The notes under the pieces are model-generated. The model did no database searches. It was given only the letters and a program-made list of their open reading frames with translations, and was not told the DNA's origin. Position numbers and translations under genes: made by a program. This document shows positions 12,630-39,211 of a stretch of DNA of 43,649 nucleotides, piece by piece. Source of the DNA: an uncultured Candidatus Saccharibacteria bacterium (GTDB lineage: Bacteria; Patescibacteriota; Saccharimonadia; Saccharimonadales; Saccharimonadaceae); assembly GCA_946414345.1 (NCBI GenBank), contig CAMKOB010000007.1:1-43649 (forward strand). The letters run 5' to 3'. The stretch's first letter is position 1; each line of letters starts with the position of its first letter.

Positions 12630-12635
12630 AAGACA

Positions 12636-12664
12636 ATTATAATACTAATGCTTGAAAAAAGCAA
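12636..12664 (-). promoter_or_regulatory. Promoter giving a leaderless GTG-start transcript
   Basis: Minus-strand TTGCTT (12659-12664), a 17-base spacer and TATAAT (12636-12641). Six bases follow before the GTG at 12629, so the mRNA should begin at the start codon. No other good start codon in this frame follows a ribosome site. Confidence 0.65.
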
Positions 12665-12690
12665 TACATAATTAGTCTTTTTATCAACTT

Positions 12691-21674: not shown

Positions 21675-21736
21675 AAAAGCCTTTCGTTTTTTATTTTTTT
21701 ATTACGTTTTTGTTTGAATATAATTCAACACTTCTA

Positions 21737-21765
21737 ATTATACATAAGTATTTATGCTATGTCAA
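21737..21765 (-). promoter_or_regulatory. Consensus promoter of the InlB-repeat wall protein
   Basis: Minus-strand TTGACA (21760-21765), exactly 17 bases, then TATAAT (21737-21742). This is a perfect sigma70 match, giving a leader of about 55 bases. Confidence 0.85.
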
Positions 21766-21802
21766 CGTTTTTTAGTATTTTTTTTTAAATTTTTAAAGCT
21801 TT

Positions 21803-22876
21803 TTAAGCACTTTCCAAAAAAGCATTTATAAACTCATCAATCTCGCCATCTAGCACCGCATCAACATCTGTTGTTTCAAAATCCGTCCGCGTGTCTTTAA
21901 CTAATTTATATGGCTGCATCACATAATTTCGAATCTGCTGACCCCAGCTTGCCGACTCACCGGCGCGTAATTCACCAATTGTTTCCGCATGTTGTTCCAG
22001 TTTCATTTGTGCCAACTTGCCACGCAAAATTTCCATTGCCTTTTCTTTGTTTTGTAACTGTGAACGTTCATTCTGAATCGCCACCACAGTATTAGTTGGA
22101 AGATGCGTAATGCGCACCGCTGAATTTGTCGTATTAACAGACTGTCCGCCATGCCCACCAGAATGATAAACATCTATTCTTAAATCTTTTTCTTCAATCT
22201 CCACGTCTGTGTCCGCCTTCAAAATCGGTAAAATCTCGACGAGCGCAAATGATGTCTGACGCAAATTATTAGCATTAAATGGCGACAATCTTACTAATCG
22301 ATGTACACCATGTTCAGATTTAAGCATTCCATATACATTTGTACCAGTTACTTCATAAACTGCGGTTTTTATGCCAGCCTCTTCCCCTTCTACCCGCTCG
22401 ATCAAGGCCACTTTAAAACCTTTTTTCTCAAAAAATCTTAAGTACATCCGCTCAAGCATCCCCGCCCAGTCCATCGCCTCTGTGCCACCAGCGCCAGAAG
22501 TAAGCCGTACTATCGCACCCATGCTATCATATTTACCGTTGAAGCGCAAAGCTTTCTTTAATTCTGACAATTGTTTTTCCATCGCCTCGAGTTGACCATC
22601 AATTTCGTCCTTTAAGCTCTCGTCCGACAAATCCATTAATTCTTTCAAATCTTGAATCTGTGTTTTTAACAATTGCCACGGCTGAATCTCATCATTGAGC
22701 CTTGCCAACTCCTGGTTTTTTTCAGTTGCAAGTTTCACATCTTTCCAAATCTCCGGCTCTGCCACCTCTTTTTCTAATTCTGCTACCTGTTTCAGTTTTG
22801 CGTCAATATCTAATTTTTCCCAAACCTTCAAAAAATCCGTCTCTAGCGTATCCAATCGCTTAATTAAATCTTGCAT
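21803..22876 (-). CDS. prfB: Peptide chain release factor 2
   Basis: 357 residues, full RF2 length. The tripeptide SPF (in RLSPFNANN, near residue 197) reads UGA/UAA, and GGHGGQSVN near residue 243 carries the GGQ that triggers peptide release. The gene is one uninterrupted frame, so the programmed +1 frameshift of many prfB genes is absent. Its presence means UGA is a stop codon here, arguing against the SR1/Gracilibacteria-type code. A TATAAT with TGG just upstream lies seven bases before the ATG, so the mRNA is probably nearly leaderless. Confidence 0.97.
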   Translation of the reverse strand: MQDLIKRLDTLETDFLKVWEKLDIDAKLKQVAELEKEVAEPEIWKDVKLATEKNQELARLNDEIQPWQLLKTQIQDLKELMDLSDESLKDEIDGQLEAMEKQLSELKKALRFNGKYDSMGAIVRLTSGAGGTEAMDWAGMLERMYLRFFEKKGFKVALIERVEGEEAGIKTAVYEVTGTNVYGMLKSEHGVHRLVRLSPFNANNLRQTSFALVEILPILKADTDVEIEEKDLRIDVYHSGGHGGQSVNTTNSAVRITHLPTNTVVAIQNERSQLQNKEKAMEILRGKLAQMKLEQHAETIGELRAGESASWGQQIRNYVMQPYKLVKDTRTDFETTDVDAVLDGEIDEFINAFLESA

Positions 22877-22883
22877 ACCAACA

Positions 22884-22892
22884 ATTATACCA
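22884..22892 (-). promoter_or_regulatory. Extended -10 promoter of prfB
   Basis: Minus-strand TGG-TATAAT, seven bases before the prfB start codon. No good -35 box is seen at 16-18 bases, which is usual for extended -10 promoters. Confidence 0.6.
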
Positions 22893-22917
22893 TATATAAT
22901 ATACTGCTTTTCCCCAC

Positions 22918-22944
22918 AAAATTAGCACCCCCCAGGGTGCTAAT
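22918..22944 (-). terminator. Terminator after the membrane protein at 22962
   Basis: A 10-bp stem (22921-22930 with 22935-22944) with a four-base loop. The same hairpin sequence recurs at 23908-23931, after the neighbouring paralogue. The T-run is short here. Confidence 0.75.
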
Positions 22945-22961
22945 CTCACATAAATAAAAAG

Positions 22962-23855
22962 CTATTGTTGTTTTTGAATATTCTTCAACATATAATGCCC
23001 GTCATCCTTAGTAAACGTCATTGTATACACAGGAATATTATCCGCAAAATTTTCTATTAAATCTTGGATAGCTTCACTTTTGGGAGCCGAGTATGGTTTC
23101 ACACAATAATTACTGCCAATCTGATCTTCAGATTCGCACCAACTAACAGCATCATGGTATACTTTTACGACCAGAATGCCCTCTTCGTATCTTGCCTCTT
23201 TTACGACAGAAAACATAGTCCCACCAGTACCGCCGATACCGCCAAGTTTTACCTTAAATTGCCCGCCCCGTTCTTCTGTATATAAATAATCCCCATGCAA
23301 CAAATTATAGTCGCGTTTTTCTATCTCTTGATCGCTTCCAAACAAATACTTATATTTATTATTTAAATCATCGTATTTTACAGTAATCGCCCACTCGTCA
23401 ACCATAGTGGCCGCAACAACCTTATTCGCGCCCAAATTATCAAAGGCGATTTTTATTTTATTATCAACATCGAAATCGTGATCAAGTATATTATCAAATG
23501 CACCAAAATTCACCAAATATGGGTCTGCGATTGTTTGCGCCGAAGCGTTATCCATCGCATTTTTAGCAATCACCATTGACGTACCATCCGGACAAGTAAC
23601 CGTTTCGGTTTCAGTTTCAGCACCGCTATTAGCATTGGCGCAATTTGCTACTTGCGTCTCTAGGTCCTTAACCTTCTGGCTTTGAGAAACCATCTCCCAA
23701 ACTCCAAATGCTACACCACCAATCGCAATAAGCGCGAGTAGTACCATGCCAATAATTAGACCGGTTGGAGTTGTTTTCTTATCGCTATCATGAAATACCG
23801 GTTCAGCTGTATCTACCGGCGTTCCAGGTGCTGTTTGTGGTTGTCCTTCGTTCAT
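22962..23855 (-). CDS. Single-pass membrane protein of unknown function, copy 1 of a shared N-terminal module
   Basis: 297 residues: a Pro/Thr-rich cytoplasmic start (MNEGQPQTAPGTPVDTAEPV), one membrane helix near residues 31-53, a short coiled-coil ending in QVANCA, then an extracytoplasmic domain of about 200 residues. The outer domain is not recognised; it has a GGIGGTGGT turn and paired cysteines in SWCESEDQIGSNYC. The first ~75 residues are nearly identical to the next gene upstream (23951-24703), while the outer domains differ. GAAAGGG precedes the ATG. Confidence 0.75.
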   Translation of the reverse strand: MNEGQPQTAPGTPVDTAEPVFHDSDKKTTPTGLIIGMVLLALIAIGGVAFGVWEMVSQSQKVKDLETQVANCANANSGAETETETVTCPDGTSMVIAKNAMDNASAQTIADPYLVNFGAFDNILDHDFDVDNKIKIAFDNLGANKVVAATMVDEWAITVKYDDLNNKYKYLFGSDQEIEKRDYNLLHGDYLYTEERGGQFKVKLGGIGGTGGTMFSVVKEARYEEGILVVKVYHDAVSWCESEDQIGSNYCVKPYSAPKSEAIQDLIENFADNIPVYTMTFTKDDGHYMLKNIQKQQ

Positions 23856-23892
23856 CGTGCCCTTTCAAAAAAATAACTGTTATATTAAATCA

Positions 23893-23901
23893 ATTATACC
23901 A
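23893..23901 (-). promoter_or_regulatory. Extended -10 promoter of the membrane protein at 22962
   Basis: Minus-strand TGG-TATAAT directly downstream of the preceding gene's terminator. It leaves a leader of about 30 bases with a ribosome site. Confidence 0.6.
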
Positions 23902-23902
23902 T

Positions 23903-23931
23903 AAAAAATTAGCACCCCCCAGGGTGCTAAT
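23903..23931 (-). terminator. Terminator after the membrane protein at 23951
   Basis: The same 10-bp stem and four-base loop as at 22918-22944, here followed on the minus strand by a run of six T residues. Confidence 0.82.
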
Positions 23932-23950
23932 TTCTAGAAGTTTTAAAAAA

Positions 23951-24703
23951 CTATTTCAACATCGATGCGTCATATTTTTTATAACTTCCGTCAGACAACA
24001 CGAAGAATGACGATTGATAACCACCGTATCCTCTCTCCAAGTCCGATACGCCAACATTGACTACGTCAACCACATAGCCATCAATATCCAAACTTCCTTT
24101 TATACTGAAATCACTATTATTTACAGCGTCATAAAGTGGGAAGTATTGTACTGTACCATCGGTCATAATAAATCCGATGCTATCATCACTATTGACTTGC
24201 CCAGCGCCAAACTCTACAACTTTGTAAACCTTACCAGTCAAACCAGTAATATTGCACTCTCCAATGTTAATTCCTCTATAACCACCATTTTCAAGATATT
24301 CCTTATCCATTAATGTGCAACCAGCCAAACTGCCATCTTTAATTATGATGTTAACAGCATCAACGCTAGTTCCCTGAACAGGGCCAGACTGAAAAGAAAT
24401 ATTATATCCTTCCGATTCGGTAGATTCTATTACCGGATTCTCGAATTCCAGAGCTTCATCACCACCATTTGTAGTAGCACAATTCGCCACCTGTGTCTTC
24501 AAGTCTGCAATTTGCTTGTCTTTGCTAGAACCTTGCATCATTTGCCAAACGCCAAACCCAATACCACCAGCCGCAATCAGCGCAAGCAATACCAAGCCAA
24601 TTATTAAGCCAGTTGGTGACGATTTCTTGTTGTCGTCATGAAATACCGGTTCGGCTGTATCTACCGGCGTTTCAGGTGCTGTTTGTGGTTGTCCTTCGTT
24701 CAT
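23951..24703 (-). CDS. Single-pass membrane protein of unknown function, copy 2 of a shared N-terminal module
   Basis: 250 residues. The N-terminal tail, membrane helix (about residues 31-53) and QVANCA coiled-coil end match the gene at 22962-23855 almost word for word. The outer part (about residues 85-250) is different, with a Gly/Tyr-rich strand pattern and two cysteines (GCTLMDKEY and GECNITG) that may pair. No family is recognised. It has its own promoter and terminator, so each member is an independent transcription unit. Confidence 0.75.
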   Translation of the reverse strand: MNEGQPQTAPETPVDTAEPVFHDDNKKSSPTGLIIGLVLLALIAAGGIGFGVWQMMQGSSKDKQIADLKTQVANCATTNGGDEALEFENPVIESTESEGYNISFQSGPVQGTSVDAVNIIIKDGSLAGCTLMDKEYLENGGYRGINIGECNITGLTGKVYKVVEFGAGQVNSDDSIGFIMTDGTVQYFPLYDAVNNSDFSIKGSLDIDGYVVDVVNVGVSDLERGYGGYQSSFFVLSDGSYKKYDASMLK

Positions 24704-24742
24704 TGTGTCCTTTCGAAAAATATAGTTATTATGTTTAATCCC

Positions 24743-24751
24743 ATTATAACA
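24743..24751 (-). promoter_or_regulatory. Extended -10 promoter of the membrane protein at 23951
   Basis: Minus-strand TGT-TATAAT just after the terminator of the upstream gene; the leader is about 35 bases and carries GAAAGG. Confidence 0.6.
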
Positions 24752-24752
24752 T

Positions 24753-24780
24753 AAAACTAGCCCCTTGCGGGGCTAATTTT
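24753..24780 (-). terminator. Terminator after the small gene at 24779
   Basis: A TAGCCCC-TTGC-GGGGCTA hairpin (stem arms 24758-24764 and 24769-24775) with T-rich flank on the minus strand. It uses the same TTGC loop as the ribosomal operon terminator. Confidence 0.8.
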
Positions 24781-25030
24781 ATTGTGTGAGGTGCCAAGAT
24801 AAATCGCGTGAGTTAAACTCAAGTCGCATTTTATCTCGGCCAACCAGAACGTCGAAAACGTGAAGTGCCACCTGTCCAGCAAAACGCACTTGCGTTCTGA
24901 GGAGCTCAGTGACTTCGGTTTCTCGCTGATCGCCACTTCGCCGAAAACTTAGCGGCTGACAGGGCGTCATCTCGTAACCGAAAAGCGCCATCACCTCGAC
25001 CCTTTCTGTGTTGTTTGTTAAAGTTTTCAT
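24779..25030 (-). CDS. Small hypothetical protein, all-beta, behind a structured leader
   Basis: 83 residues if translation starts at the ATG at 25030, which has AAGGAGTC four bases upstream. An in-frame ATG at 25066 lies inside a hairpin and lacks a ribosome site. The protein is rich in alternating hydrophobic strands and ends MRLEFNSRDLSWHLTQ. This end faintly resembles small barrel domains of the DUF6504 kind, but the similarity is by eye only. GC content looks higher than that of neighbouring genes. It is monocistronic, with an extended -10 promoter, a long folded leader and a terminator. Function unknown. Confidence 0.65.
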   Translation of the reverse strand: MKTLTNNTERVEVMALFGYEMTPCQPLSFRRSGDQRETEVTELLRTQVRFAGQVALHVFDVLVGRDKMRLEFNSRDLSWHLTQ

Positions 25031-25168
25031 AATTGACTCCTTCAAATAATTAATTGTTAGAGTCATTTATGTGAGCCTCTTTTTTATTGGCTCATAGTTA
25101 CGACCATAAATGACAATAGCCGCAACCTTAAACTTTTCTCATTGCCAGTGACCGAAGTATGGCATGAG
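25031..25168 (-). promoter_or_regulatory. Structured 5' leader, candidate cis-regulatory RNA
   Basis: The predicted transcript starts about here. The first hairpin pairs 25138-25147 with 25160-25168 around a 12-base loop, with a one-base bulge. The second pairs 25062-25071 with 25105-25114 and, contiguous on one side, 25072-25077 with 25089-25094, leaving a 10-base bulge. The ribosome site for the gene at 25030 lies just after it. I recognise no known riboswitch or protein-binding leader. Confidence 0.5.
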
Positions 25169-25176
25169 ACACTTCA

Positions 25177-25185
25177 ATTATAGCA
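25177..25185 (-). promoter_or_regulatory. Extended -10 promoter of the small gene at 24779
   Basis: Minus-strand TGC-TATAAT. The same TGC-TATAAT block precedes the genes starting at 37464 (minus) and 39295 (plus). Confidence 0.6.
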
Positions 25186-25228
25186 TAAATAAATTTACCA
25201 AAAAATTAAATAAACACTTAATAAATAC

Positions 25229-25257
25229 AAAAAGACCCGGCTGGCTCACCAGCCGGG
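25229..25257 (-). terminator. GC-rich terminator after the acidic small protein gene
   Basis: A perfect CCCGGCTGG/CCAGCCGGG 9-bp stem with a four-base loop (25236-25257), followed on the minus strand by TCTTTTTG. Confidence 0.88.
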
Positions 25258-25314
25258 GTAGTTTAAGGATTGAATTGCTTATTGAGCTTTCTTATAATGC
25301 TAACTATTAGGATG

Positions 25315-25563
25315 CTAAACCAAATCCTCGATATCAATCGTAGCACCGTAATCAACGAGTTCATCATAGTGTCGAACCACGTCATCAGGCGCAAGCAACA
25401 TCGCCACAAGGTCAGCATCGAAACCAGCCTTAAGAAAATCTCCACAAAGCTCTTCCGCTTCCGTGTTGATGTCATACAGTTCCAGTGCATCCGCTTCCTC
25501 GAATTCATCCAACAGGGTTTCGAAACGCGATTTTAAATACGCATCCCGTTCCAATTCGTCCAC
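25315..25563 (-). CDS. Small acidic hypothetical protein
   Basis: 82 residues with a very acidic helical composition (LLDEFEEADALELYD and AEELCGDFLKAGFDADLVAML) and a final TIDIEDLV. The frame begins with GTG at 25563, which abuts an AGGAGG; the TTG three codons later has better spacing, so the exact start is open. It has its own promoter and a strong terminator. No family recognised. Acidity and small size recall inhibitor or DNA-mimic proteins, but nothing else supports that idea. Confidence 0.6.
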   Translation of the reverse strand: MDELERDAYLKSRFETLLDEFEEADALELYDINTEAEELCGDFLKAGFDADLVAMLLAPDDVVRHYDELVDYGATIDIEDLV

Positions 25564-25676
25564 CCTCCTCTACAGAGCTATTCCATCATAATCGAAAAAG
25601 AGCTAATAGTACATTTTGCTTCATCCTTTTTGTAAAATACTAGGCAATTCCGCTTTTGCACGGCGCCAGTATTCAT

Positions 25677-25704
25677 ATCATAGCACAAAACACCAGAAAG
25701 TCAA
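25677..25704 (-). promoter_or_regulatory. Promoter of the acidic small protein gene
   Basis: Minus-strand TTGACT (25699-25704), a 16-base spacer and TGC-TATGAT (-10 at 25677-25682). The leader is about 105 bases and includes a possible 12-codon reading frame starting ATGAAGCAAAAT after an AAAAGG. Confidence 0.65.
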
Positions 25705-25715
25705 TGTGGAATAAC

Positions 25716-27689
25716 CTAGCTCATGTAATATGTAGCATTCAAATCAACAGTCTGCCCCCTTAGAAATTCAAAATTACTCTCTAAATATTTTATTACATTC
25801 AATTCACCAGAAAAACTATCAGATTCATCATGAGATACCACTCCCCAAGTATTCCAATCGTTATAATCGGCCGGATCATACACGCCATTTTTGGTAGAAA
25901 AATCATAAACCAAAACCGGAACCGAACCCTCACGTTCCTCATTATAAATTGGATAGCCTCGCACATAATAACCATATGTTTCAGCATAATTTACATCAGA
26001 ACGATAAAGGTTTATGCCAATAGTCGCACTATCGCCACCTATATAGAATCTTCCGGATTCTAAAAGAGGCATATCTTCATCCAAGTAATAATATTCAAAA
26101 GGACGACTCCAGTGATACCAAGTCCCCTTTCCGAGCATTAATCTCCGATTGCCATCAGCACTAACACCATAGTTTACATCAACCACCAATCTACCGGCGC
26201 CAGGAGCAATAATGGAATCGTAAATTGAATCGCTGTCCAGATCATATGTACTTACCTTATTACCATCATCATCAATATTGCTACTCTTTGCGATAAAACA
26301 GTTTTCGTAATCAATTGTACTGACATCAGATGGCTTCTTTACATACACGGGCGTAATCCTTGCGTAATAACCATAGCTAGCACCAGTATATCCATCACTG
26401 TCATCAGAAGTAGTAGATAAACCAATAACATTTGAATCATAGTTAAAAACAATCGTTGTAGTTTCTCGATTTACATCCCAATTCTGGTTACTACCAAATT
26501 CACCAAATAAATGAGTCCAATCATCCGAACCCTTATAGATCTCAACTCTAGAAGTATAACGAAAACCGTAGGTCAACTCAACACGCAAATAATCTGCATC
26601 AACAAATTCAATATAATTAGGCTCATCATTAGAGGTCATCATTAATTCTAACATTGTGCCATCGTCATCTATATTATATGACTTCAATATTTGTGACTCA
26701 CCCAAATATTCAGTCGAACAACCATCATAATAATAAGCAACTCTAGGTTTAAAATTATAAACAACCGTATTAGTTCTAGCACTCGAACCACCTCCAATAT
26801 GATACCTCACCGTTACCGCATCAGTATCAACATTCGCTAATGCCACATAATTAATCGTAACACCACCATAAGTGCCATAATCCAAATCCGGAGTGATGTA
26901 AGCGCCATAATAAAAAGTTGACTCGTCTCCAGCAGGTGTAGATTCACTAGTGGCCTTAAGCGTCATAATTTCCTTTTCCGTAGTAGGCAACCCTCTAAAC
27001 AAAACATCTTCTTCGGAATTTGGCTTAGAAATAGCCATGCCCCACGTATTATCAATCAGAGCCTGCGAGTAAGTTGTCTCCAACATCGAAATAGTACTAC
27101 TGGAAGATGTATTTGTCTCATTTTTCAAATCTGTCGAATTACTATCCACATAAGCCATCAAAGTATAACCGGCAGTAGTAGCCGTATCAACCGACACCAC
27201 GCTTTCCCCCACACCAAATACTTTGTCATCCTCTAGGTCCAAATCAATAACAATATCATTAGTGGTAATCGACAAAGCATTGACACTGTCATGGATACTT
27301 GCTTTAGTATTCGAATCACCACCAAAGAGCAAGGCGCTCACCGAACCTGAATCACCATTCAAATTAGCAATTGCGAAAAGACCAAGTAGTAACACAATTG
27401 ATAGAGAAGCCACTTTGGCCACCAAATGCCGTGAAGTATGTACCGAAAACTTATTAACCTTACGCCGACGAACAGTTGCAGTAATAATAGTCACCACAAT
27501 TATCGCCACGAGAACCGCACCCCCCACAATTGGCAAAACCATACTAACACCATTATCACTAATATTCTTAGTGTCAAGAATCGTATTACCACCAGTATCC
27601 GGAATCACAATCGGTTCAGCATCAGCCGGCTCATCCGGAGTATTTGAAGCATTTGGATCATTTACATTTACCGATAATTTCGATGACAT
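25716..27689 (-). CDS. Large surface protein with an N-terminal PDTG/membrane module
   Basis: 657 residues. The N-terminus is odd: a Pro/Asp-rich stretch with IPDTGGN, a hydrophobic helix (about residues 49-70) and RRRKVNK look like a C-terminal wall-sorting signal, yet a second signal-like helix follows near residues 90-108 (VAKVASLSIVLLLGLFAIANL). The outside part is beta-rich, with a domain also found at the N-terminus of the protein at 9504-12629. Two related repeats follow (CSTEYLGESQILKSYNIDDDG and CFIAKSSNIDDDG segments). The start follows AAGGAAGGAG. It forms an operon with the adhesin gene 14 bases upstream. Role unknown, probably surface display. Confidence 0.8.
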   Translation of the reverse strand: MSSKLSVNVNDPNASNTPDEPADAEPIVIPDTGGNTILDTKNISDNGVSMVLPIVGGAVLVAIIVVTIITATVRRRKVNKFSVHTSRHLVAKVASLSIVLLLGLFAIANLNGDSGSVSALLFGGDSNTKASIHDSVNALSITTNDIVIDLDLEDDKVFGVGESVVSVDTATTAGYTLMAYVDSNSTDLKNETNTSSSSTISMLETTYSQALIDNTWGMAISKPNSEEDVLFRGLPTTEKEIMTLKATSESTPAGDESTFYYGAYITPDLDYGTYGGVTINYVALANVDTDAVTVRYHIGGGSSARTNTVVYNFKPRVAYYYDGCSTEYLGESQILKSYNIDDDGTMLELMMTSNDEPNYIEFVDADYLRVELTYGFRYTSRVEIYKGSDDWTHLFGEFGSNQNWDVNRETTTIVFNYDSNVIGLSTTSDDSDGYTGASYGYYARITPVYVKKPSDVSTIDYENCFIAKSSNIDDDGNKVSTYDLDSDSIYDSIIAPGAGRLVVDVNYGVSADGNRRLMLGKGTWYHWSRPFEYYYLDEDMPLLESGRFYIGGDSATIGINLYRSDVNYAETYGYYVRGYPIYNEEREGSVPVLVYDFSTKNGVYDPADYNDWNTWGVVSHDESDSFSGELNVIKYLESNFEFLRGQTVDLNATYYMS

Positions 27690-27703
27690 GCCATGCTCCT
27701 TCC

Positions 27704-29557
27704 TTAATCAAACATTTTACGTCTTATTATTCTATATGCAAAATGTGTAAGAATCGCACCACCAATTATCCCACATCCAACCAACACGATACCAAGCGCA
27801 TTTTTAACAAAATCCTCGCCAGTATTAGAGAAAGCACCAGTATCTGGAGCCTCAATATCTTCTTCCTCCTCTTCATCTACACCTTTCTTAAGTTGCACAA
27901 GAACAATTACACCTTCCTGGTCGTTGGCATGAATGTCAAAATCTTCAGAATAAACTATCCCGTCATCCTCATTGTAGCCTTTGCTCTGTATTTTACTATA
28001 CCCTTCTGGAGAAGTAACTTGAGCAAACCTGTAGGTTCCAACTCCTAGATTTGAGAACAAAATCGTACCTTCGTCACCAACAGTCCTTATTGATTCTCCG
28101 CCATCGCTTGCTTTGTAATCAGTATATTCACCATCCTGTCCTTTCAATTGCAATTTATAAGTCCCACCAGCCACCACCTGGCCAGAATCAACATCAGACT
28201 GCATAAGTAAAGCGGAGAAACTACTTACATCGATTGAAGACGAGATACCGACTAATCTACCACTTCCAGTTATTGGAGTCCGAACGCCATCATACGTAAA
28301 AATCGCGTCTGAATTAAAAGTGCGCTCCTCCAAAGCTAATGGATAAGTTGCCCCAACAGTGACACGGTAAGACGGTACCTTTCCGCGCGTTACGGCATTT
28401 TGGCCAAAACTTGCTGTCATCCTTTCAATCAAAGCAGATCTTTGATCTTCAGAATAAAACCCATAATCAAGTATTTTTTCAATGGCTAAATTCATATAAT
28501 TTGCATCAAGGTCGCTCCAAGACGGCCCATCAGCACCAATCCTTCCGAAATAAAAGATTGCCGAGAATAAGCCATCGCTAGATTTATATACACCATATTG
28601 CAACGGTGTACTAATCACCCGCGCCTTAAACGCATTATATGTTTCGCCTTCTTGTTGGGTCACTTCAGTAAAGAGAGGTCTCACGTTAAAATTATAACCA
28701 AGATTAGAACTATCGCTTCCACTCTGCAAGTTTAATGGGGCAGGCAAAAGTGCATACATCGTTCCGACCGTAATATTAGTTGCACCCTCATAGCTATCTT
28801 CAATAATACAATCAATTGCATCCCCAGTAGCACCATTAGACCTCATCAAAGAATTCGTTAGAGATGATCCGGCTATATAGGCCCAATTAATACGGTTATT
28901 TGTCGCAACGCCAGTTTGCATTTTAGTATCAACCAAATGATGAAGGCCTTGAGCGCCAATTTTAAAACAAAAAGTTTTATTGCCAATCGTCACTTGGCCA
29001 ATCCTAGCATAACCAATTCGCCATGTCCTTAAACTACCTTTTGCAAAAACAAGTTCAAATGGTTGTGTCACACTCAAGCCAACAGCGTTTTCATTAAATT
29101 CACCGATAATATTTCCACTCTCAATTCTCCATTGTCCAATAACAGTATTACCATTACGCAAATCAACATTTCCAGTACTAGCCGGAAAACTAAGATCAAC
29201 CGCGCTTCCTGTGGAGTGCGTTTGAATTGCCACACTGAAATTATCACCACTTTGTAAAGTGTCACCAGACAGCAGCTGCATCGACAATTTCAGAACACCA
29301 GAATCAACAGAAGCAGAATCAACGGAATAATCGTCTAGATTTGAAGAGGCCGATGCTCCAGCCTGAACATCCACCTTGGTACCATCCGCAAGAAACAATG
29401 TCAGATTTTCAACATTTATATAATTACTAATATCCCGTCCCCCTTCAGCAAAGACATTAGCGGATTTTAGGCCCAAACAACACGTAATAAGAATAACAGC
29501 TGCCAACAAAAACTTCGCAACGTATCCAAACATCCTAAAACATTTTTTCTTTTTCAT
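27704..29557 (-). CDS. Wall-anchored adhesin or pilin-like protein with a Cna-B/SpaA-type domain
   Basis: 617 residues: a signal peptide ending near NVFAEGG, a long beta-rich N-terminal region resembling MSCRAMM adhesive domains, then a Cna-B/SpaA-like domain near residues 455-550 (GGTYKLQLKGQDGEY and FSNLGVGTYRFAQVTSPEGY). An acidic EEEEEDIE linker leads to APDTG, a hydrophobic helix and RRKMFD, a sortase signal. Cna-B/SpaA domains form stabilising isopeptide bonds in Gram-positive pilins; the Lys/Asn/Glu triad was not verified here. It is the first gene of a two-gene operon with the protein at 25716-27689. Confidence 0.82.
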   Translation of the reverse strand: MKKKKCFRMFGYVAKFLLAAVILITCCLGLKSANVFAEGGRDISNYINVENLTLFLADGTKVDVQAGASASSNLDDYSVDSASVDSGVLKLSMQLLSGDTLQSGDNFSVAIQTHSTGSAVDLSFPASTGNVDLRNGNTVIGQWRIESGNIIGEFNENAVGLSVTQPFELVFAKGSLRTWRIGYARIGQVTIGNKTFCFKIGAQGLHHLVDTKMQTGVATNNRINWAYIAGSSLTNSLMRSNGATGDAIDCIIEDSYEGATNITVGTMYALLPAPLNLQSGSDSSNLGYNFNVRPLFTEVTQQEGETYNAFKARVISTPLQYGVYKSSDGLFSAIFYFGRIGADGPSWSDLDANYMNLAIEKILDYGFYSEDQRSALIERMTASFGQNAVTRGKVPSYRVTVGATYPLALEERTFNSDAIFTYDGVRTPITGSGRLVGISSSIDVSSFSALLMQSDVDSGQVVAGGTYKLQLKGQDGEYTDYKASDGGESIRTVGDEGTILFSNLGVGTYRFAQVTSPEGYSKIQSKGYNEDDGIVYSEDFDIHANDQEGVIVLVQLKKGVDEEEEEDIEAPDTGAFSNTGEDFVKNALGIVLVGCGIIGGAILTHFAYRIIRRKMFD

Positions 29558-30762: not shown

Positions 30763-31569
30763 GTGGTTGAATTGAAAGTCAGGGATATCGAAGTGGGGAA
30801 TCGCATCGGCGAATCCTCTAAATTCCGCATTTACCTTGGTAAGATGGACGATGGGCACTCAGTGATTATGAAGGTGGCAAAGACATTCGAAGATGGCGAC
30901 ATCCTGGCCGAGGAAGCTGGCAAATTTAGAGTTCTGCATGCTTTTGAGAAAGTGATAGCAAAGTACGTGGAGATCCATGACACAAGTAACCCGCACTACG
31001 ATTGGTTATTTGCGAACTTGCTAGCCTCTTTTCTGGAACCTACCCAAGACGACCGTCGCATCAATGTCTTTGCAATGCCCGATATCGACCTTGGCGAGCT
31101 AATCCCATTAACAAAACTGCACGCCGAAGTCGAAATCAACGTTCGCACTAGCGTCTGGATTCTGGGGCGTCTTTTTAAGTTCTACAGCTTTTTCGAGCTG
31201 CTAGCGGCTCAAGGGGACAACCCTGTCACTAGATACCCAGTCTTCTCGCCCGATGATTACTTCATTGGGGCAAAAAGGCACCGCCTAATCTACTACAACT
31301 TCTCAGGAGATGTGGCCGACGTAATAGCTACTGATTTTGTCAAGGCTATTTCTAAGTTCATTCTTGACTGGGTAGTTGTTGGGGATGATCTAGCTGAACA
31401 GAAATATTTTGAACTGTTGGGTGACTTCGCGAAAAATGGTTGCGCCTCGTTTGAGGAGGCGCACAACTATCTCTACACGCCTGTTGCTAAGCTCTGGGGA
31501 ATTCAGTATCATCCTTTTACTTATCGCGACCGTGGCACCATCGCCTGGAAAACCATCAAGGAGGATTGA
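30763..31569 (+). CDS. Pseudokinase-like protein, first gene of an accessory operon
   Basis: 268 residues, GTG start just after GGGGAAAGGAA. The N-terminal third looks like a protein-kinase N-lobe: VGNRIGESSKFRIYLGK (glycine-loop position), SVIMK with a candidate ATP-site Lys37, and acidic residues at 50-51. MPDIDLGELIPL fits the hinge. In the catalytic region the usual HxD...N and DFG/DW are degraded: RYPVFSPDDYFIGAKRHRLI is followed by YYNFSG. A catalytically weak or inactive kinase fold is therefore proposed, perhaps a nucleotide sensor or scaffold. The stop lies three bases before the vWA gene. Base composition looks richer in GC than the flanks. The fold call is tentative. Confidence 0.55.
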   Translation: MVELKVRDIEVGNRIGESSKFRIYLGKMDDGHSVIMKVAKTFEDGDILAEEAGKFRVLHAFEKVIAKYVEIHDTSNPHYDWLFANLLASFLEPTQDDRRINVFAMPDIDLGELIPLTKLHAEVEINVRTSVWILGRLFKFYSFFELLAAQGDNPVTRYPVFSPDDYFIGAKRHRLIYYNFSGDVADVIATDFVKAISKFILDWVVVGDDLAEQKYFELLGDFAKNGCASFEEAHNYLYTPVAKLWGIQYHPFTYRDRGTIAWKTIKED

Positions 31570-31572
31570 GAA

Positions 31573-32640
31573 ATGGGACGAGAAACCTTTTCGGTAGAGA
31601 GTTACCGACGTGCTCGCCGTGAATACGGTGTAACGCACGACACTGACGTGACCAAAAAAGCAGAACAGTATGCCAAGGAAACTGGACATCTCAGCGAAAT
31701 CGTTGACCCCGCCATTAACCCGATCAGGAGATCTTTGATCCGGCTGGACCCCCATCAGAAGAAGTGGATTGCGACCCTCGGCTGCCCGATGGACATCGAG
31801 GTCAGTTGCGATACCACTGGTTCTATGGGGGGCGAAGTCGATACGGAGATGGCAGTTCTGCCCGAACTCTACGAGGCTGTGGCGAAAGTTCTGCCGGGTT
31901 ACGACCCGCAACTTTGTCTCGGCATCTTCGGCGACGTCTGTGACGATTTCGTCATGTGTCGTCCGCAATTCGAGATGGAAGCGCCCAAAATCGTGAACTA
32001 TCTCAAGGAAATGGCGCCCCAGCGCGAAGGTGGAGATACTCCGGAAGATCCGCAGTATGCCATGTTTGCTCGAGCTTATCTGACCGATGCCTACACCAAT
32101 CGCATTGGTCTTAAAGGGTATCACTTCATCGTGACAGATGCACCCTGCCATCATCGTCTCAATCGTGATGATATCGTGCGTATTTTTGGCAAAGATATCT
32201 TTGATAATGAGCTGAAAAATATGGCTGAGATTCCCACGATGGAAGAGATGATTAAAGATCTCAAGAACAGGACTCATCAGTTTATTCTGGTGGTCAATTC
32301 CCACAGCACTGCCGACGATTGGTGCGATCTCTGTGGTTCGAAGTCGGTAATAAAAATCGATTCTACTCGGCAACTGCCGGCGGTCATTTCCGCCATCATC
32401 GGTCTGACCGAGGGGACAAGGGATATCGACAATCGTCTGGTTTTCGACTATGATTTAATTAAGCAGCTTTCCAGCATCGACATTGGTGCGCAAGCGAAGC
32501 TTCGCCACGCGTTACCCCATCCGGTTCCGAAGGCTGGCGACATCTTTAGGAACAAAGGTGACCTCTGGCCGATCCAGCCTGGCGAAGAAGACGCCGAAGA
32601 TACGCCGATGGAAGCTCCGGACCACATCGAATACCTGTAG
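31573..32640 (+). CDS. von Willebrand factor A domain protein with intact MIDAS residues
   Basis: 355 residues. IEVSCDTTGSMGGEVDTEM gives the metal-ion-dependent adhesion site with Asp80, Thr82 and Ser84; GGDTPEDP supplies Thr156 and FIVTDAP supplies Asp189. No signal peptide or membrane helix is seen, so it is cytoplasmic. Such vWA proteins usually scaffold Mg-dependent complexes, often with AAA+ or kinase partners. The C-terminal 60 residues hold a Pro/Asp/Glu-rich tail. A strong AAGGAGG overlaps the end of the pseudokinase-like gene, so the two are translationally linked. Confidence 0.85.
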   Translation: MGRETFSVESYRRARREYGVTHDTDVTKKAEQYAKETGHLSEIVDPAINPIRRSLIRLDPHQKKWIATLGCPMDIEVSCDTTGSMGGEVDTEMAVLPELYEAVAKVLPGYDPQLCLGIFGDVCDDFVMCRPQFEMEAPKIVNYLKEMAPQREGGDTPEDPQYAMFARAYLTDAYTNRIGLKGYHFIVTDAPCHHRLNRDDIVRIFGKDIFDNELKNMAEIPTMEEMIKDLKNRTHQFILVVNSHSTADDWCDLCGSKSVIKIDSTRQLPAVISAIIGLTEGTRDIDNRLVFDYDLIKQLSSIDIGAQAKLRHALPHPVPKAGDIFRNKGDLWPIQPGEEDAEDTPMEAPDHIEYL

Positions 32641-32690
32641 TAATCAAGATTCATTAACAATTTGGTTTACAGTCTGCTAAGAGGTGTAAT

Positions 32691-34004
32691 GTGTTCAACG
32701 AAATCTACGTTATCACCGACCTCGGTCCAGGCGACGGCGGAAAAGGCAGTATAGTGCACGCACTTTCATGCAAAACCGACGCTAGTATTATCATCAAACG
32801 CGGCGGCGCACAAGGTTCTCATGGCGTACACACTTCCCTAGGAGAGAGTTTCAACTTTTCTCAGTGGGGATGCGGAACGCTTGAAGGTGTACCGACTTTT
32901 CTGTCCGAGCAAATGGTCATTTCACCTGTTGGGCTTGAGAATGAATCAGAAGCCCTCAAAAAGCTCGGGATTTTCGACCCGTTCAAACTTCTCACCTGCG
33001 ACCCGTCCTGCATCGTCGCCACGCCTTATCATAGAATCGCTTCTCAGTTTGAAGAGCTGCTCTTAAAAGATAAGCCGCGCGGCACCGTCGGAACGGGCGT
33101 TGGACAAGCCTATCGCATGACTTCCTTAGGCGAAGAGATGACAATCCGAGCTCGCGATCTCACGAATCGTCGCGTTATCCGCTCAAAACTTCAAAGACAA
33201 TACGATTATTACTTTGAGCGGTATGGCAACATCACTCGAGATGCTTTTTTACTTGACGATTTTCAAAGCTACGCCGCCAACCTCATCTTGCTTCTTCATG
33301 ACGAAGATTATTTTAACTATATTATCGATGTATTCGACAAAATAGGTAAAAAACTTACGTTCGCAAGTCTAGATGAGGTGTTAAAAGGCGACGGCACAGC
33401 AATCGTCGAGTGCTCGCACGGAGTTTTAACCGACGCTGAAATGGGCTTAAAACCCCACGTCAGCGCCATCCGAACTCTGCCGATCTTCGCAAACGAAATG
33501 CTTAAGAATGCCGGGTACGATGGCAAGATTATCAACTACGCCGTTCATCGTGCCTACGAAATCCGTCATGGCGCCGGCCCTATGCCGACCTATGACCCCG
33601 AATTTACCGCACGCATGCTTCCTGGCAGTCACAAAGATAAAAACCGCTGGCAAGGCACCGTTCGCGCCGGCCCCCTTGATTTGAATCTTGTGAAATATGC
33701 ACTGGATGTAAGTAACGAAATAAGCTTTGATGGACTGGCTCTCACTTGGTTTGACCAGATTTTAGCAAACAATCGTACTTGGCCAATTTGCGTCGACTAC
33801 AAGTACGTACGAAACTGCAACGAATCGTATGTTGACTTTTTGAGTAGAGCCGAGCCCATCATTCCTGAAACCGTCATCAAAAACCCCATTGCCGTACGCG
33901 AGTTATTCGATTTCGTCGGCAAAATCCTCGAAGGTTTTCTAAAAGTCCCGCTAAAAATCCTTTCAGCCGGACCCACGGAAAAGAATAAAATCTATTCAGA
34001 ATGA
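32691..34004 (+). CDS. Divergent adenylosuccinate-synthetase-like enzyme
   Basis: 437 residues, GTG start after GAGGTG. It follows the PurA plan: VITDLGPGDGGKGSIVHAL (P-loop-like, with Asp15 and Lys18), RGGAQGSHGVH (His44, matching the catalytic His), GTVGTGVGQAY and EMTIRARDL (IMP region), and RAGPLDLNLVKYALDVS near the C-terminus. Genuine PurA has QWGDEGKGK and a guanine-recognising TKLD; here the first is PGDGGKG and the second is TWFDQ, so the GTP preference may be changed. PurA joins IMP and aspartate; the substrate here is unknown. No purB or other purine gene is nearby, which suggests a dedicated role within this operon. Confidence 0.8.
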   Translation: MFNEIYVITDLGPGDGGKGSIVHALSCKTDASIIIKRGGAQGSHGVHTSLGESFNFSQWGCGTLEGVPTFLSEQMVISPVGLENESEALKKLGIFDPFKLLTCDPSCIVATPYHRIASQFEELLLKDKPRGTVGTGVGQAYRMTSLGEEMTIRARDLTNRRVIRSKLQRQYDYYFERYGNITRDAFLLDDFQSYAANLILLLHDEDYFNYIIDVFDKIGKKLTFASLDEVLKGDGTAIVECSHGVLTDAEMGLKPHVSAIRTLPIFANEMLKNAGYDGKIINYAVHRAYEIRHGAGPMPTYDPEFTARMLPGSHKDKNRWQGTVRAGPLDLNLVKYALDVSNEISFDGLALTWFDQILANNRTWPICVDYKYVRNCNESYVDFLSRAEPIIPETVIKNPIAVRELFDFVGKILEGFLKVPLKILSAGPTEKNKIYSE

Positions 34005-34017
34005 GGAGGACAAAATC

Positions 34018-35223
34018 ATGGCTGAAGAAATGAAGAACACCGCCAGCGAGACCACCGCCGAATCTGCCCTGGCAGATTCCGCAACAAACCCTTTTGACAA
34101 CGAAGTCATCACCAAACTCATCGAGTCTGGCCTTGACCGAACCGCCGCTCAGAAAATCATGGTAGACCTTGGCATCGAAAGCCTCGAAGACCTGGCTTCC
34201 CTCGAAGTCACTGACCTCACCGGCGCCGGCATGAAGCTGGCCAAAGCCCGTAAGCTCGTAAATGAGCTGAAGACAGCATCAAAACCTGCCGCTTCCGCCG
34301 TAGCCACCGCGGAAACCCGCGCCATTCAGACCCAGTTCGAGGCTCTTCTTCCTCCTGTGCCGACAGATGATTCCTGGCTCAACGCCCTGAAAACCGGCGG
34401 CATTCTGAAAGTGGACGAGTCGTCCTACATCGCCGCCATCCGTGCGGCACTGGCTGACCGAGCTGGGCTCTATGCCATCCCGGATGCCTTGGCGAAAGCA
34501 ATGGAAAAATACGCCGACGAGACGGAAGAACAGGTCGACCCGACCTTCTACGCTCTGCGTAAGTCTCTGACCCGCCGCACCTATGGCGACATCTTCGCCG
34601 CCATCGACGGCCTGGACGGCACTTTCATCACCGAAAGCCGCCGCAAGGAATTCCTCGGTCGCATCCGCGATACCCTGTGGCCCGCCATCGCTGAAAGTTA
34701 CCAGACGTTGGACGGCTGGTATCAGACCTGGCGCGCCAGCTTCTCTGATCCTTCCATGCTGATTGCCGCCATCGGTGGAGGTTTCGGCGGCGGTGCTCCT
34801 GGCATGAGTATGATTACTCCGCCCGACACCGCTCCGCTTCATGATGCCGGCGATACGCTGGTCGATTCCATCAACCGCGTTTTCCGCGGCACCGGTGTTC
34901 AGGTCGCCGCCGCCATGGCGTACGACGCCAATGTCATTCGCAACACTCTGGAAGATACGCGCCTGCCCTCTATGGTTGGCGTGAAAAACCGCGAGATGAT
35001 GCTGAAGAAAATCGGCGCCGCCGTCAGCAGCAACTACATCCGTCTGGAGCAGAACCTGGTCAAATACGTCCTCGGCTTTGCCAAGCACGACACGGTGACT
35101 TCCGATGTGGAAGTCAACTACTTCGTGGCGCTCTGGCAGCTCGGCACCCAGATCAACTGGAACGAGCTCGGTGTGAGCAACACCGGCGGCGTGACTGGTC
35201 TCACCGGCAAGCGCGTCCTGTAA
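34018..35223 (+). CDS. HhH-like N-terminal domain protein of unknown function, last gene of the operon
   Basis: 401 residues. Residues 30-85 resemble a helix-hairpin-helix or SAM-like module (DRTAAQKIMVDLGIESLEDLA and TGAGMKLAKARKLVNELK). After a linker, a helical body of about 280 residues contains a Gly-rich loop (AAIGGGFGGGAPGMSM) near residue 260 and ends with GGVTGLTGKRVL. HhH units usually bind nucleic acid or protein; the body is not recognised. GAGGAGG precedes the ATG, 13 bases after the adenylosuccinate-synthetase-like gene. It is visibly GC-rich, with heavy use of GCC, CTG and GGC codons. A 22-bp palindromic terminator follows. Confidence 0.65.
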   Translation: MAEEMKNTASETTAESALADSATNPFDNEVITKLIESGLDRTAAQKIMVDLGIESLEDLASLEVTDLTGAGMKLAKARKLVNELKTASKPAASAVATAETRAIQTQFEALLPPVPTDDSWLNALKTGGILKVDESSYIAAIRAALADRAGLYAIPDALAKAMEKYADETEEQVDPTFYALRKSLTRRTYGDIFAAIDGLDGTFITESRRKEFLGRIRDTLWPAIAESYQTLDGWYQTWRASFSDPSMLIAAIGGGFGGGAPGMSMITPPDTAPLHDAGDTLVDSINRVFRGTGVQVAAAMAYDANVIRNTLEDTRLPSMVGVKNREMMLKKIGAAVSSNYIRLEQNLVKYVLGFAKHDTVTSDVEVNYFVALWQLGTQINWNELGVSNTGGVTGLTGKRVL

Positions 35224-35241
35224 ACCACCGCACATTAGATT

Positions 35242-35271
35242 GGCCCCCTGCATGCAGGGGGCCTTTCTTTT
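35242..35271 (+). terminator. Terminator of the pseudokinase-vWA-AdSS operon
   Basis: A 22-base perfect palindrome (35242-35263, GGCCCCCTGC...GCAGGGGGCC) followed by TTTCTTTT. It sits between the convergent plus-strand operon and the minus-strand gene ending at 35278. Confidence 0.9.
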
Positions 35272-37546: not shown

Positions 37547-38098
37547 TTATTTTCTCTTTGCTTCAAAAAACACACACGGCACCGCCGGTGGAGGCGTAAA
37601 ATCATTCGGCTTCAGAGGTAACCGTATCTTAGTTTCATAATCCACCGTCAGTTGATACCCCAGTTGCGAAGTATAATGTCTAGTGTTATTCAGTAGTTTC
37701 AACGCAAACTGCTTCTGTAAAATCAGATAAATCGCCTCTGGCGGATTTTTATCTTCAATCAATTTATGCAAAATCTCCGAGCTCAAATGAAACGGCGGAT
37801 TTGCAAATATCTTATACGGCTCATCCGGTAGTTCAAAATCTTGGAATTCCTTCTCTACCACCGTCACGTTAGCAATCCCCCTTTTCGACAAATTCTCTGT
37901 TAGTTTTGCTACAGTTGTAGCATCCGGCTCAATTGCGATCACTTGTCGCACGCGTTTTGACAGCGCGCTCGTAATCACTCCAGACCCCGCCCCAACCTCT
38001 ACTACTAGGTCCCGTTTTTTTAGATTTGAATGCCCAATCAACATCAAAGCCAGTCTTGGAGAACGTAAAAAATGTTGCGCCAATCTATAATCCCGCAT
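37547..38098 (-). CDS. Short rRNA adenine methyltransferase of the KsgA/Erm family
   Basis: 183 residues. QHFLRSPRLALMLI opens as in KsgA/Erm, VVEVGAGSGVITSALSKR is SAM motif I, VIAIEPDATTVAKL motif II, and FANPPFHLSSEIL contains the NPPF adenine-binding motif. The end FTPPPAVPCVFFEAKRK matches the family's FxPxPxVxS strand. KsgA is about 270 residues; here the C-terminal helical domain is missing. It methylates rRNA adenine N6 in known members. It overlaps the end of dus by 14 bases, so the two are coupled. Housekeeping KsgA versus resistance Erm cannot be decided. Confidence 0.85.
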   Translation of the reverse strand: MRDYRLAQHFLRSPRLALMLIGHSNLKKRDLVVEVGAGSGVITSALSKRVRQVIAIEPDATTVAKLTENLSKRGIANVTVVEKEFQDFELPDEPYKIFANPPFHLSSEILHKLIEDKNPPEAIYLILQKQFALKLLNNTRHYTSQLGYQLTVDYETKIRLPLKPNDFTPPPAVPCVFFEAKRK

Positions 38099-39161
38099 CT
38101 TCTATCACCTTCCACGCCTCTTCCACCGAATGTGTCTCCATCAGCTTCGCCCTTATCTCCCCCGCCCCCGGGAAATTATTGATATAAATCTTGAAATAAT
38201 GCTTCAAAGGCTCATACGGGAGAATATGCGAATGGTTGTTCGAGGAGCATTTGCGACAACGGGAGCAAGGTAGCGAGCGAGCCCCGTAACGCTCGCCCCT
38301 TGGGACGCGAATTGCCGAAGGCAAACGGGCGCGAGCGAAGCGGCGACGAGAATAACCATTCGTAAATTCTTCGTATAAATTTAAATGCAATTTCAACAAT
38401 TTAATCAAATCCTCCCTGGTCGGTTGATAATCCGTAAAACAATACGGATTTGCAAACACTCCGCGCCCGATCATAAACCCATCCACCTCTGGATACTGCT
38501 CGTGAAGACTCATCGCATGTGCTTTATCTCTGATATCACCATTAATTATCAGCTTTGTCTCTGGACTTATTTCATCACGAAGCTTCACAATCTCTGGTAT
38601 CAATTCATAATGCGCTGGCACTTTACTCATTTCTTTCTTCGTCCTAAGATGAACTGTTAGAGCCGCCGGATGTTCGCTCAATAACACCGGTAGCCACTCC
38701 TTAAATTCATCCATAGCGCTCCATCCGAGCCTCGTCTTTACCGACACTGGCAAATTCGTCGCTTTTTTCGCATTTCGCACGCATTCCACAGCCAGTTCCG
38801 GCGTTTTAATCATCGCAGCTCCACCCCCAGCCCGATTGACATTCTTATCTGGGCAACCAAAATTAATGTCCACCCCAACAAAACCAAGCTCCTCTAAAGC
38901 TCCTGCTACCACCGCAAAATGCTCCGGATTTTTACCCCAAATCTGCGCAATTATCGGTGGATCCGTCGGAGCAATCGTGAGCCTCTCAAGAGCATTTGCC
39001 CGCCCCTTCTCTGACGCATAAGATGACACATTGGTAAATTCCGTAAAAAACAAGTCCGGCCGGCCAGCTTCCGCCACCACCTGGCGAAAAACCACATCCG
39101 TCACCCCTTCCATCGGCGCCAAAATCAAAAACGGCTTTGCCAGCTTGTCCCAAATATTCAT
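38085..39161 (-). CDS. dus: tRNA-dihydrouridine synthase with an in-frame inserted element
   Basis: 358 residues from the ATG at 39161; it makes dihydrouridine in tRNA using FMN and NADPH. Visible motifs: LAPMEGVTDVVFRQ, VDINFGCPDKNVNRAGGGAAM with catalytic Cys103, VKTRLGW, HLRTK, INGDIRD and GFMIGRGVFANPY. Residues 269-309 form a foreign Arg-rich insertion (GYSRRRFARARLPSAIRVPR and onward) encoded by the element at 38229-38362. Removing these 41 residues leaves EEFTN-HSHILPYEPLKHYFK and a normal length of 317. The insertion falls in the C-terminal helical, tRNA-facing domain. The ATG lies seven bases after TATAAT, so the mRNA is probably leaderless; starts further upstream are less likely. 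Confidence 0.93.
   Translation of the reverse strand: MNIWDKLAKPFLILAPMEGVTDVVFRQVVAEAGRPDLFFTEFTNVSSYASEKGRANALERLTIAPTDPPIIAQIWGKNPEHFAVVAGALEELGFVGVDINFGCPDKNVNRAGGGAAMIKTPELAVECVRNAKKATNLPVSVKTRLGWSAMDEFKEWLPVLLSEHPAALTVHLRTKKEMSKVPAHYELIPEIVKLRDEISPETKLIINGDIRDKAHAMSLHEQYPEVDGFMIGRGVFANPYCFTDYQPTREDLIKLLKLHLNLYEEFTNGYSRRRFARARLPSAIRVPRGERYGARSLPCSRCRKCSSNNHSHILPYEPLKHYFKIYINNFPGAGEIRAKLMETHSVEEAWKVIEDAGL
38229..38362. repeat. 134-bp GC-rich element with inverted ends inserted in dus
   Basis: Its ends are inverted repeats: CGAATGGTTGTTC (38229-38241) and GAATAACCATTCG (38350-38362), with one mismatch in 13. The interior is far more GC-rich than the surrounding dus sequence and contains further paired segments, such as TTGCC-TTC-GGCAA and GCGAGC with GCTCGC. 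The net addition to dus is about 123 bases, a multiple of three, without a stop codon, so the protein stays readable. The size, ends and in-frame position resemble Rickettsia palindromic elements; no sequence identity with them is claimed. Confidence 0.7.
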
Positions 39162-39168
39162 ATCCATT

Positions 39169-39177
39169 ATTATATCA
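39169..39177 (-). promoter_or_regulatory. Extended -10 promoter of dus
   Basis: Minus-strand TGA-TATAAT, seven bases before the ATG at 39161, with TTTACT about 17 bases upstream. Confidence 0.6.
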
Positions 39178-39211
39178 CATTTCTCCACCCCAGTAAAATA
39201 TACTTTACATA

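Follow-up and report, generated by a model that had tools for sequence, protein, structure and literature searches.

Several described systems share parts with the gene set reported here. The TerY-P triad combines a von Willebrand A (vWA) protein with PP2C and a serine/threonine kinase-zinc ribbon protein (PMC11090510), and the MoxR-vWA ternary conflict systems feature vWA together with inactivated kinase domains (PMC7159879). Phage PurZ enzymes carry a serine in place of Asp13 of the adenylosuccinate synthetase PurA (PMC12884076), and NAMPT (NadV), a gene of nicotinamide adenine dinucleotide (NAD) synthesis, is common in jumbo phages (PMC9503650). The locus in question is an operon of four genes (kin, vwa, pur and hhh) on contig CAMKOB010000007.1 of an uncultured Candidatus Saccharibacteria bacterium (assembly GCA_946414345.1), which was analysed as a stretch of 43,649 nucleotides, hereafter the window. 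The operon is, almost certainly, a version of a conserved module composed of a pseudokinase (often with a J domain), a vWA protein and a non-canonical enzyme of the PurA family, referred to below as the triad.

The distribution of the triad was established by scans with the PurA-like alignment alone, which gave 520 relatives in genome contigs and 268 in viral contigs. The best 80 of each were kept, and genes at these 160 loci were called with profile hidden Markov models (HMMs). A vWA protein is encoded at 148 of the loci, within 1.5 kb of pur at 139, and a kinase at 121. Most of the 12 loci without vWA are cut by contig ends, with L061, L094 and L169 as possible true exceptions; on the 3-kb contig L061 (positions 401-2566), a locus of the five-gene clade described below, pur directly follows kin. 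Where both partners are encoded on the pur strand, the order is kin-vwa-pur in 110 of 119 loci and vwa-pur-kin in 9. Neither the vWA nor the kinase HMM gave a match at any of 28 canonical purA loci, each about 4.2 kb long. Pairwise identities of kin, vwa and pur are correlated (Spearman 0.76-0.81, permutation maximum 0.12; 0.30-0.44 for distant pairs).

PurA-like genes of the window kind were found in Patescibacteria outside the family, in replicons of Rhodococcus, Tsukamurella, Variovorax and Agrobacterium, and in Mycobacterium phage I3, and their readable neighbours are homologues of the kinase, the vWA protein or both. Altogether, the core triad is spread over many bacterial phyla, plasmids and large phages. 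The tree of the PurA-like proteins requires at least 14 changes between bacterium and virus, some of the IMG/VR contigs being possibly misclassified. For isolate phages there is no such doubt: the PurA-like protein has matches in 189 Mycobacterium phage records, and among these I3 is the record in which the triad itself was read. A plain tblastn search of the phage records gave no close relative of vwa or of the fourth gene, hhh, so that profiles were required. An earlier note, written from the DNA alone, had regarded the gene combination as one that matches no named pathway. As the genes recur together and no described operon with the same genes was found in the open-licence literature, this view still stands.

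PurA phosphorylates an oxo group with GTP. The residues of pur were compared with a reference of E. coli PurA and 28 PurA proteins of Patescibacteria, using 162 members of the PurA-like family. Like the family at large, the window protein retains D13, K16, H41 and D333 of PurA, and the catalytic Asp13, His41 and Lys16 are present in 98-99% of the family, the window protein included (where the aspartate is Asp15). A different picture emerged at N38, T129, R143, V273, T300/T301 and R303 which, together with D333, we take to be the positions holding inosine monophosphate (IMP), aspartate or GTP. N38 is replaced by Q in 99% of the family, V273 by H in 100% and T301 by Q in 94%; T129 is mostly C, V or I, T300 is mostly W, and R143 has no fixed substitute. 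A one-residue deletion affects R303/R305, the exact placement of the gap being uncertain. N38, T129, R143 and R303 are conserved at 93-100% in the 29 PurA proteins, versus Q, V, G and the deletion in the window protein. A substrate-holding role of R303 in PurA has been described (PMC8342488). Retention of the catalytic residues with replacement of the substrate residues suggests that GTP-driven activation has been kept, with a change in the substrate, in the amine or in both. The divergent adenylosuccinate synthetase of the earlier note was therefore well recognised, and pur is rather probably a ligase with a new substrate.

Searches of the four operon proteins against Pfam, NCBIfam, PADLOC and PHROGs gave a clear match to the PurA family alone. 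Even so, pur falls far below the NCBIfam cut-offs for PurA equivalogs (83 bits versus 395.55 for TIGR00184, 94 versus 402 for NF002223). No second PF00709 protein was found elsewhere in the window genome, an assembly of 861 kb that is about 99% complete and not closed, and no TIGR00928 match that would indicate PurB was obtained in it, although this model matches 14 of 14 control genomes. With no other PurA and no detectable PurB, ordinary synthesis of adenosine monophosphate (AMP) is unlikely, and a role of pur in de novo AMP synthesis was rejected.

The protein encoded by kin has only a weak kinase match in PHROGs (0.011); phage I3 has a homologue of it, a J-domain kinase (PF00069, 8.7e-9). 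In the window protein the catalytic Asp and Asn positions are substituted and no HxD-N loop is present. The catalytic loop reads HGAVxPxH...DW in the wider family and HGAITPDN...DW in phage I3, whose kinase also carries the HPD motif of the J domain. Among 124 aligned proteins HGD is retained in one triad kinase (L105), while a second match (L111) is a longer, separate kinase on the other strand; a Patescibacteria kinase outside this set (L041) also retains HGD and the Asn. The degraded kinase fold read from the window thus holds for virtually all family members, in which the catalytic Asp is missing. Since W132, R136 and H173 are strongly conserved, the fold appears to be retained for something besides ordinary phosphotransfer. 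The HPD motif was detected in 54 of 90 kinases outside the clade of five-gene loci to which the window belongs, and in none of the 35 within it.

No Pfam match was obtained for vwa. Across 151 homologues D80, T82, S84, E158 and D189 are invariant or nearly so. The metal ion-dependent adhesion site (MIDAS) proposed earlier is therefore upheld for Asp80, Thr82 and Ser84; Thr156, the fourth residue named, is not conserved. Regulation of the ligase by the pseudokinase and vWA pair could be given an even chance.

Recurrent neighbours of the triad include an NrtR-type Nudix protein, NAMPT, NAPRT, nicotinamidase, NAD synthase and ADP-ribosylglycohydrolase. NAD-salvage genes lie within 8 kb in 34 of the 160 loci, and 18 loci have at least two kinds of them. 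Of 50 large phage records, 14 encode NAMPT; in 9 of these the PurA-like gene is no more than 7 kb away, whereas record lengths alone would give about one such case, related phages not being independent in this estimate. All six NrtR matches are near the triad. Because NAMPT is common in jumbo phages anyway, it is the co-location and not the presence that is informative. A link of the triad to NAD-type nucleotides is thus supported, not proven. The locus L042 (3992-12667) displays a dense NAD-salvage neighbourhood around a J-domain kinase and vWA, pyruvate-kinase-barrel and PurA-like proteins, with two NadD-like genes (one of which seems to be fused to an NAD-kinase-like part), a nicotinamidase-like gene and an ADP-ribosylglycohydrolase.

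The pyruvate-kinase-barrel protein (PF00224) is encoded between vwa and pur, or close by, in some Patescibacteria. As an additional recurring nucleotide-related enzyme it would fit a small biosynthetic pathway. With KIE/K-like motifs kept, it recurs beside the triad at L041, L042, L044, L086, L096, L107, L109, L119 and L125. A Ro60-like protein with TROVE and vWA domains was observed in the triad neighbourhood of six viral contigs (L164, L190, L199, L202, L208 and L209). On an Agrobacterium vitis plasmid (L048) the triad lies immediately upstream of a set encoding an AAA ATPase, DUF5682, DUF4132 and a VWA protein.

Defence genes had been proposed as neighbours to look for. Most chromosomal loci that were read do not adjoin recognised defence genes, and the PADLOC library of 2023 gave no match for the four operon proteins. 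The nucleotide-signalling or defence role suggested by the earlier note was divided: a conflict or nucleotide role gains from the presence of the same triad in phages, and a purely host-defence role is disfavoured, since lytic phages carry the triad.

In Saccharibacteria and Parcubacteria the core triad is extended by a SAM-like protein, the product of hhh, and by a convergent nucleotidyltransferase-like gene, nt. The five-gene form constitutes one clade (support 1.0) together with two IMG/VR contigs, and all five genes are present in 32 of 37 genome loci of this clade. Its pur proteins show the extra changes E14 to G, Q224 to H and, mostly, K331 to W. Out of 60 genomes of the same genus, vwa was found in 13, and 12 (the window included) carry kin, vwa, pur and hhh in order plus nt. 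The latter is convergent in all of these except L020, where it sits about 3 kb upstream; L016 and L054 represent one contig with all five genes, and G038 retains vwa and nt only. Conservation of the four operon reading frames in the 11 further genomes indicates true genes rather than chance frames. The four-gene unit first read from the window was therefore correct in its genes and too narrow in its limit, as the convergent gene joins them in nearly every relative.

The cassette flanks vary in nearly all 12 genomes, being shared by G047 and G051 only. The close sister genome G006 (L242, about 1.8-2.6 kb) was considered as an empty insertion site and rejected: everything from vwa to nt is gone, and a truncated kin of about 240 open codons remains beside the methyltransferase gene. 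The scar is therefore that of a deletion and gives no proof of insertion. The remnant is 60% identical to the window kin, versus 96% for the methyltransferase gene and 87% for the flanking transglutaminase-like gene, indicating that kin diverges fast. Patchy carriage, changing flanks and the deletion in G006 characterise the cassette as patchy and losable by deletion.

The features of the operon are collected in the table. The four genes are separated by gaps of 3, 50 and 13 bases, exactly as first described, and a single terminator behind them was likewise found as a hairpin. A start at TTG 30772 is possible for kin instead of GTG 30763. The higher guanine-plus-cytosine content noticed earlier was also borne out, with 47.4, 51.6, 47.9 and 59.1% for kin, vwa, pur and hhh versus 42.6 and 42.1% in the flanking genes and 41.6% in the window. 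Ribosomal-protein genes at 15.7-18.7 kb show that the window is chromosomal, and a tRNA search of the window revealed no tRNA as a possible insertion site. In the genome-contig scan with the PurA-like alignment, the closest named relatives of the window genome were Candidatus Saccharibacteria, many of them from ruminant guts.

Table. Positions of the operon genes, the terminator and the convergent gene in the window
Feature	Description	Position	Strand	Further detail
kin	pseudokinase, 268 aa, without J domain in the five-gene clade	30763..31569	+	
vwa	von Willebrand A domain protein, 355 aa, MIDAS core D80-x-T82-x-S84	31573..32640	+	
pur	PurA-like ligase (putative), adenylosuccinate synthetase superfamily, 437 aa	32691..34004	+	PF00709, 2.7e-35
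hhh	SAM-like (or HhH-like) N-terminal domain, residues ~37-85, plus helical body, 401 aa	34018..35223	+	
terminator	intrinsic terminator of the plus-strand operon	35242..35263	+	9-pair stem (8 GC pairs), 4-nt loop, T-rich tail
nt	fifth gene, convergent; helical N-terminal part and C-terminal nucleotidyltransferase-type motif, 392 aa	35278..36456	-	

The name of a helix-hairpin-helix (HhH) protein initially given to the fourth gene product is probably wrong. Its N-terminal domain is better described as SAM-like, with matches to SAM_TNK in 15 of 30 relatives and to HHH_5 in 4 of 30, the window protein reaching 18.6 bits against HHH_5 where the Pfam cut-off is 27. The body is helical and was modelled by AlphaFold2 with medium confidence (pLDDT 72). 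The fold search gave no significant match in PDB, a null that carries little weight; the best structural neighbours of the SAM/HhH-like domain, none significant, include RAD51 N-terminal domains. The product of nt carries the motif GGS...DLD, in which G260, S261, D272 and D274 are invariant among 29 relatives. Pfam matches of these relatives are to Polbeta (9 of 29) and NTP_transf_2 (6 of 29), and the profile matches HI0073 at 1.5e-5. Its structure was predicted with confidence (pLDDT 93); the fold search gave no significant PDB or viral match, a null of equally little weight; the Foldseek and VIA rows span mainly the helical part. The protein is probably nucleotidyltransferase-like, the sequence matches being weak yet consistent.

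Two further observations were made in the window. Large surface-type proteins (Listeria-Bacteroides repeats, Fib_succ_major, Cthe_2159, SpaA-like) are encoded at 9504-13677 and 20514-29557, near the ribosomal-protein genes. Inside a dihydrouridine-synthase-like reading frame (38085-39188), the stretch 38221-38370 is inverted with respect to G006, is flanked by imperfect inverted repeats of 21 nucleotides (38221-38241 and 38350-38370) and is out of frame there; it is either an invertible segment or an assembly artefact.

From these data we propose, with a probability of about 0.4, that the triad is an undescribed phage and bacterial system for phage-host conflict: the pseudokinase and the vWA protein would act as a chaperone-linked switch over a GTP-dependent ligase derived from PurA. 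The PurA-like protein would be the working enzyme: GTP would phosphorylate an oxo group, to which an amine would then be joined. Free IMP, with aspartate bound as in PurA, is predicted not to be the substrate; the reaction would instead yield an uncommon purine nucleotide or dinucleotide (possibly of the NAD type), or a larger molecule, such as a polymer, carrying a modified base. The dead kinase and the Mg-dependent vWA protein may form a peptide-binding switch that assembles or licenses the ligase, DnaK being recruited by the J domain present in many of the kinases. In the five-gene form, the SAM-like protein could scaffold the complex and the nucleotidyltransferase could consume the nucleotide product or transfer it. 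The benefit would be control over purine or NAD-type nucleotides during conflict, an NAD or nucleotide role that is best held tentatively. Several points weigh against this proposal. About four fifths of the loci have no NAD gene close by, with none near the window triad among the genes scanned, and many of the chromosomal copies occur by themselves. No kinase was recognised in roughly one locus out of four, and the sequence matches behind nucleotidyltransferase activity and SAM scaffolding are weak. In a quick tree the split between PurA-like and canonical PurA proteins has a support of 0.21, and the claim of a separate PurA-like family therefore rests on the residue pattern.

Other explanations were weighed against the same evidence. 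The loss of T129 and R143, the expected grips for a free 5'-phosphate, would also suit an enzyme acting on hypoxanthine or another oxo base in DNA or RNA; its partners on the nucleic acid would then be the SAM/HhH-like protein and the nucleotidyltransferase. The RAD51 domains among the structural neighbours of the fourth protein, the frequency of the triad in large phages and the Ro60/TROVE genes near six viral loci point in the same direction. Such a modification or repair role is nevertheless unlikely, as the core triad has no recognised nucleic-acid-binding domain, SAM is better supported than HhH, and the linkage to NAD genes would be left unexplained. We consider it similarly unlikely that the vWA protein and pseudokinase form a sensor that triggers a PurA-like drain of GTP or IMP into a dead-end product, as a nucleotide-depletion defence or superinfection exclusion. 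PurB for recycling the product is lacking, the cassettes are patchy and exchangeable with changing flanks, phages and hosts alike carry them, and kin diverges fast, all of which speak for such a device. However, no PADLOC match was obtained, no enrichment beside defence genes was seen in the chromosomal loci read, and the changed residues are those binding IMP and aspartate.

It is improbable that the unit is a phosphorylation switch of the TerY-P type whose target happens to be a metabolic enzyme. The adjacent vWA and kinase-fold proteins do reproduce the TerY-P theme (PMC11090510), but the catalytic Asp is lost, Pfam reported no PP2C in the window operon and neither a zinc ribbon nor an OB fusion, and no PP2C family occurs among the recurrent neighbours. 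With a dead kinase and no recurring PP2C gene next to the triad, the TerY-type comparison drawn earlier is thematic at most. The least probable explanation is ordinary PurA in purine synthesis or the diaminopurine enzyme PurZ, which makes dSMP from dGMP and aspartate. It is favoured by the Pfam match (PF00709, 2.7e-35) and by phrog_1211, which bears a PurZ-style name (2.2e-37), and is opposed by the missing PurB, the replaced substrate residues and the scores far below the equivalog cut-offs. PurZ, a candidate prompted by the PHROG name, was rejected on the profile scores (212 bits to E. coli PurA, 33 to PurZ) and on Asp13, which is kept in pur and excludes it from PurZ by the serine criterion (PMC12884076).

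If the proposal of a regulated PurA-derived ligase is correct, a widespread gene set that is usually labelled as purine synthesis or PurZ would represent a separate chemistry with its own regulatory partners, and a conserved class of J-domain pseudokinases would be given a function. The proposal can be tested directly, as well-studied Mycobacterium phages with the same genes can be grown on M. smegmatis. Phage I3 (L049) and other Bixzunavirus records contain PurA-like genes, some annotated as '2-aminooxy adenylosuccinate synthetase', that retain Asp13; with a J-domain pseudokinase and a vWA protein alongside, this PurZ-style label is probably wrong and would be corrected.

Compared with the known systems, pur shares with PurA the superfamily (PF00709), the length, the catalytic Asp13, His41 and Lys16 and the GTP-site Asp333. 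It differs in that N38, T129, R143, V273, T300/T301 and R303 are replaced or lost, vWA (148/160) and usually a pseudokinase accompany its relatives, and no PurB was detected in the window genome. PurZ and PurZ0 of Z-genome phages are likewise PurA-derived, phage-borne and under the same PHROG label, whereas phage PurZ has Ser at position 13, where 98% of the PurA-like family have Asp, and the profile similarity is weak. As in TerY-P, a vWA protein (judged by D80/T82/S84) is paired with a kinase-fold protein; here, however, the kinase is dead, a J domain stands for the zinc ribbon and a PurA-like enzyme for PP2C. The MoxR-vWA ternary systems share the themes of a vWA domain and an inactivated kinase, but neither a MoxR ATPase nor a VMAP component is a recurrent neighbour of the triad, and a single Agrobacterium locus happens to adjoin an AAA ATPase/VWA set. 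Phage NAD+ synthesis genes (NadV/NAMPT, NadR, Nudix; PMC9503650) accompany the triad in some of the phages and Patescibacteria, although most triads have no NAD gene nearby and the survey does not mention the PurA-like triad. More generally, the papers that survey jumbo phages, NAD systems of phages, ternary vWA systems and TerY-P make no mention of a PurA-like partner. Every domain comes from a known superfamily, and the novelty lies in their combination as a system.

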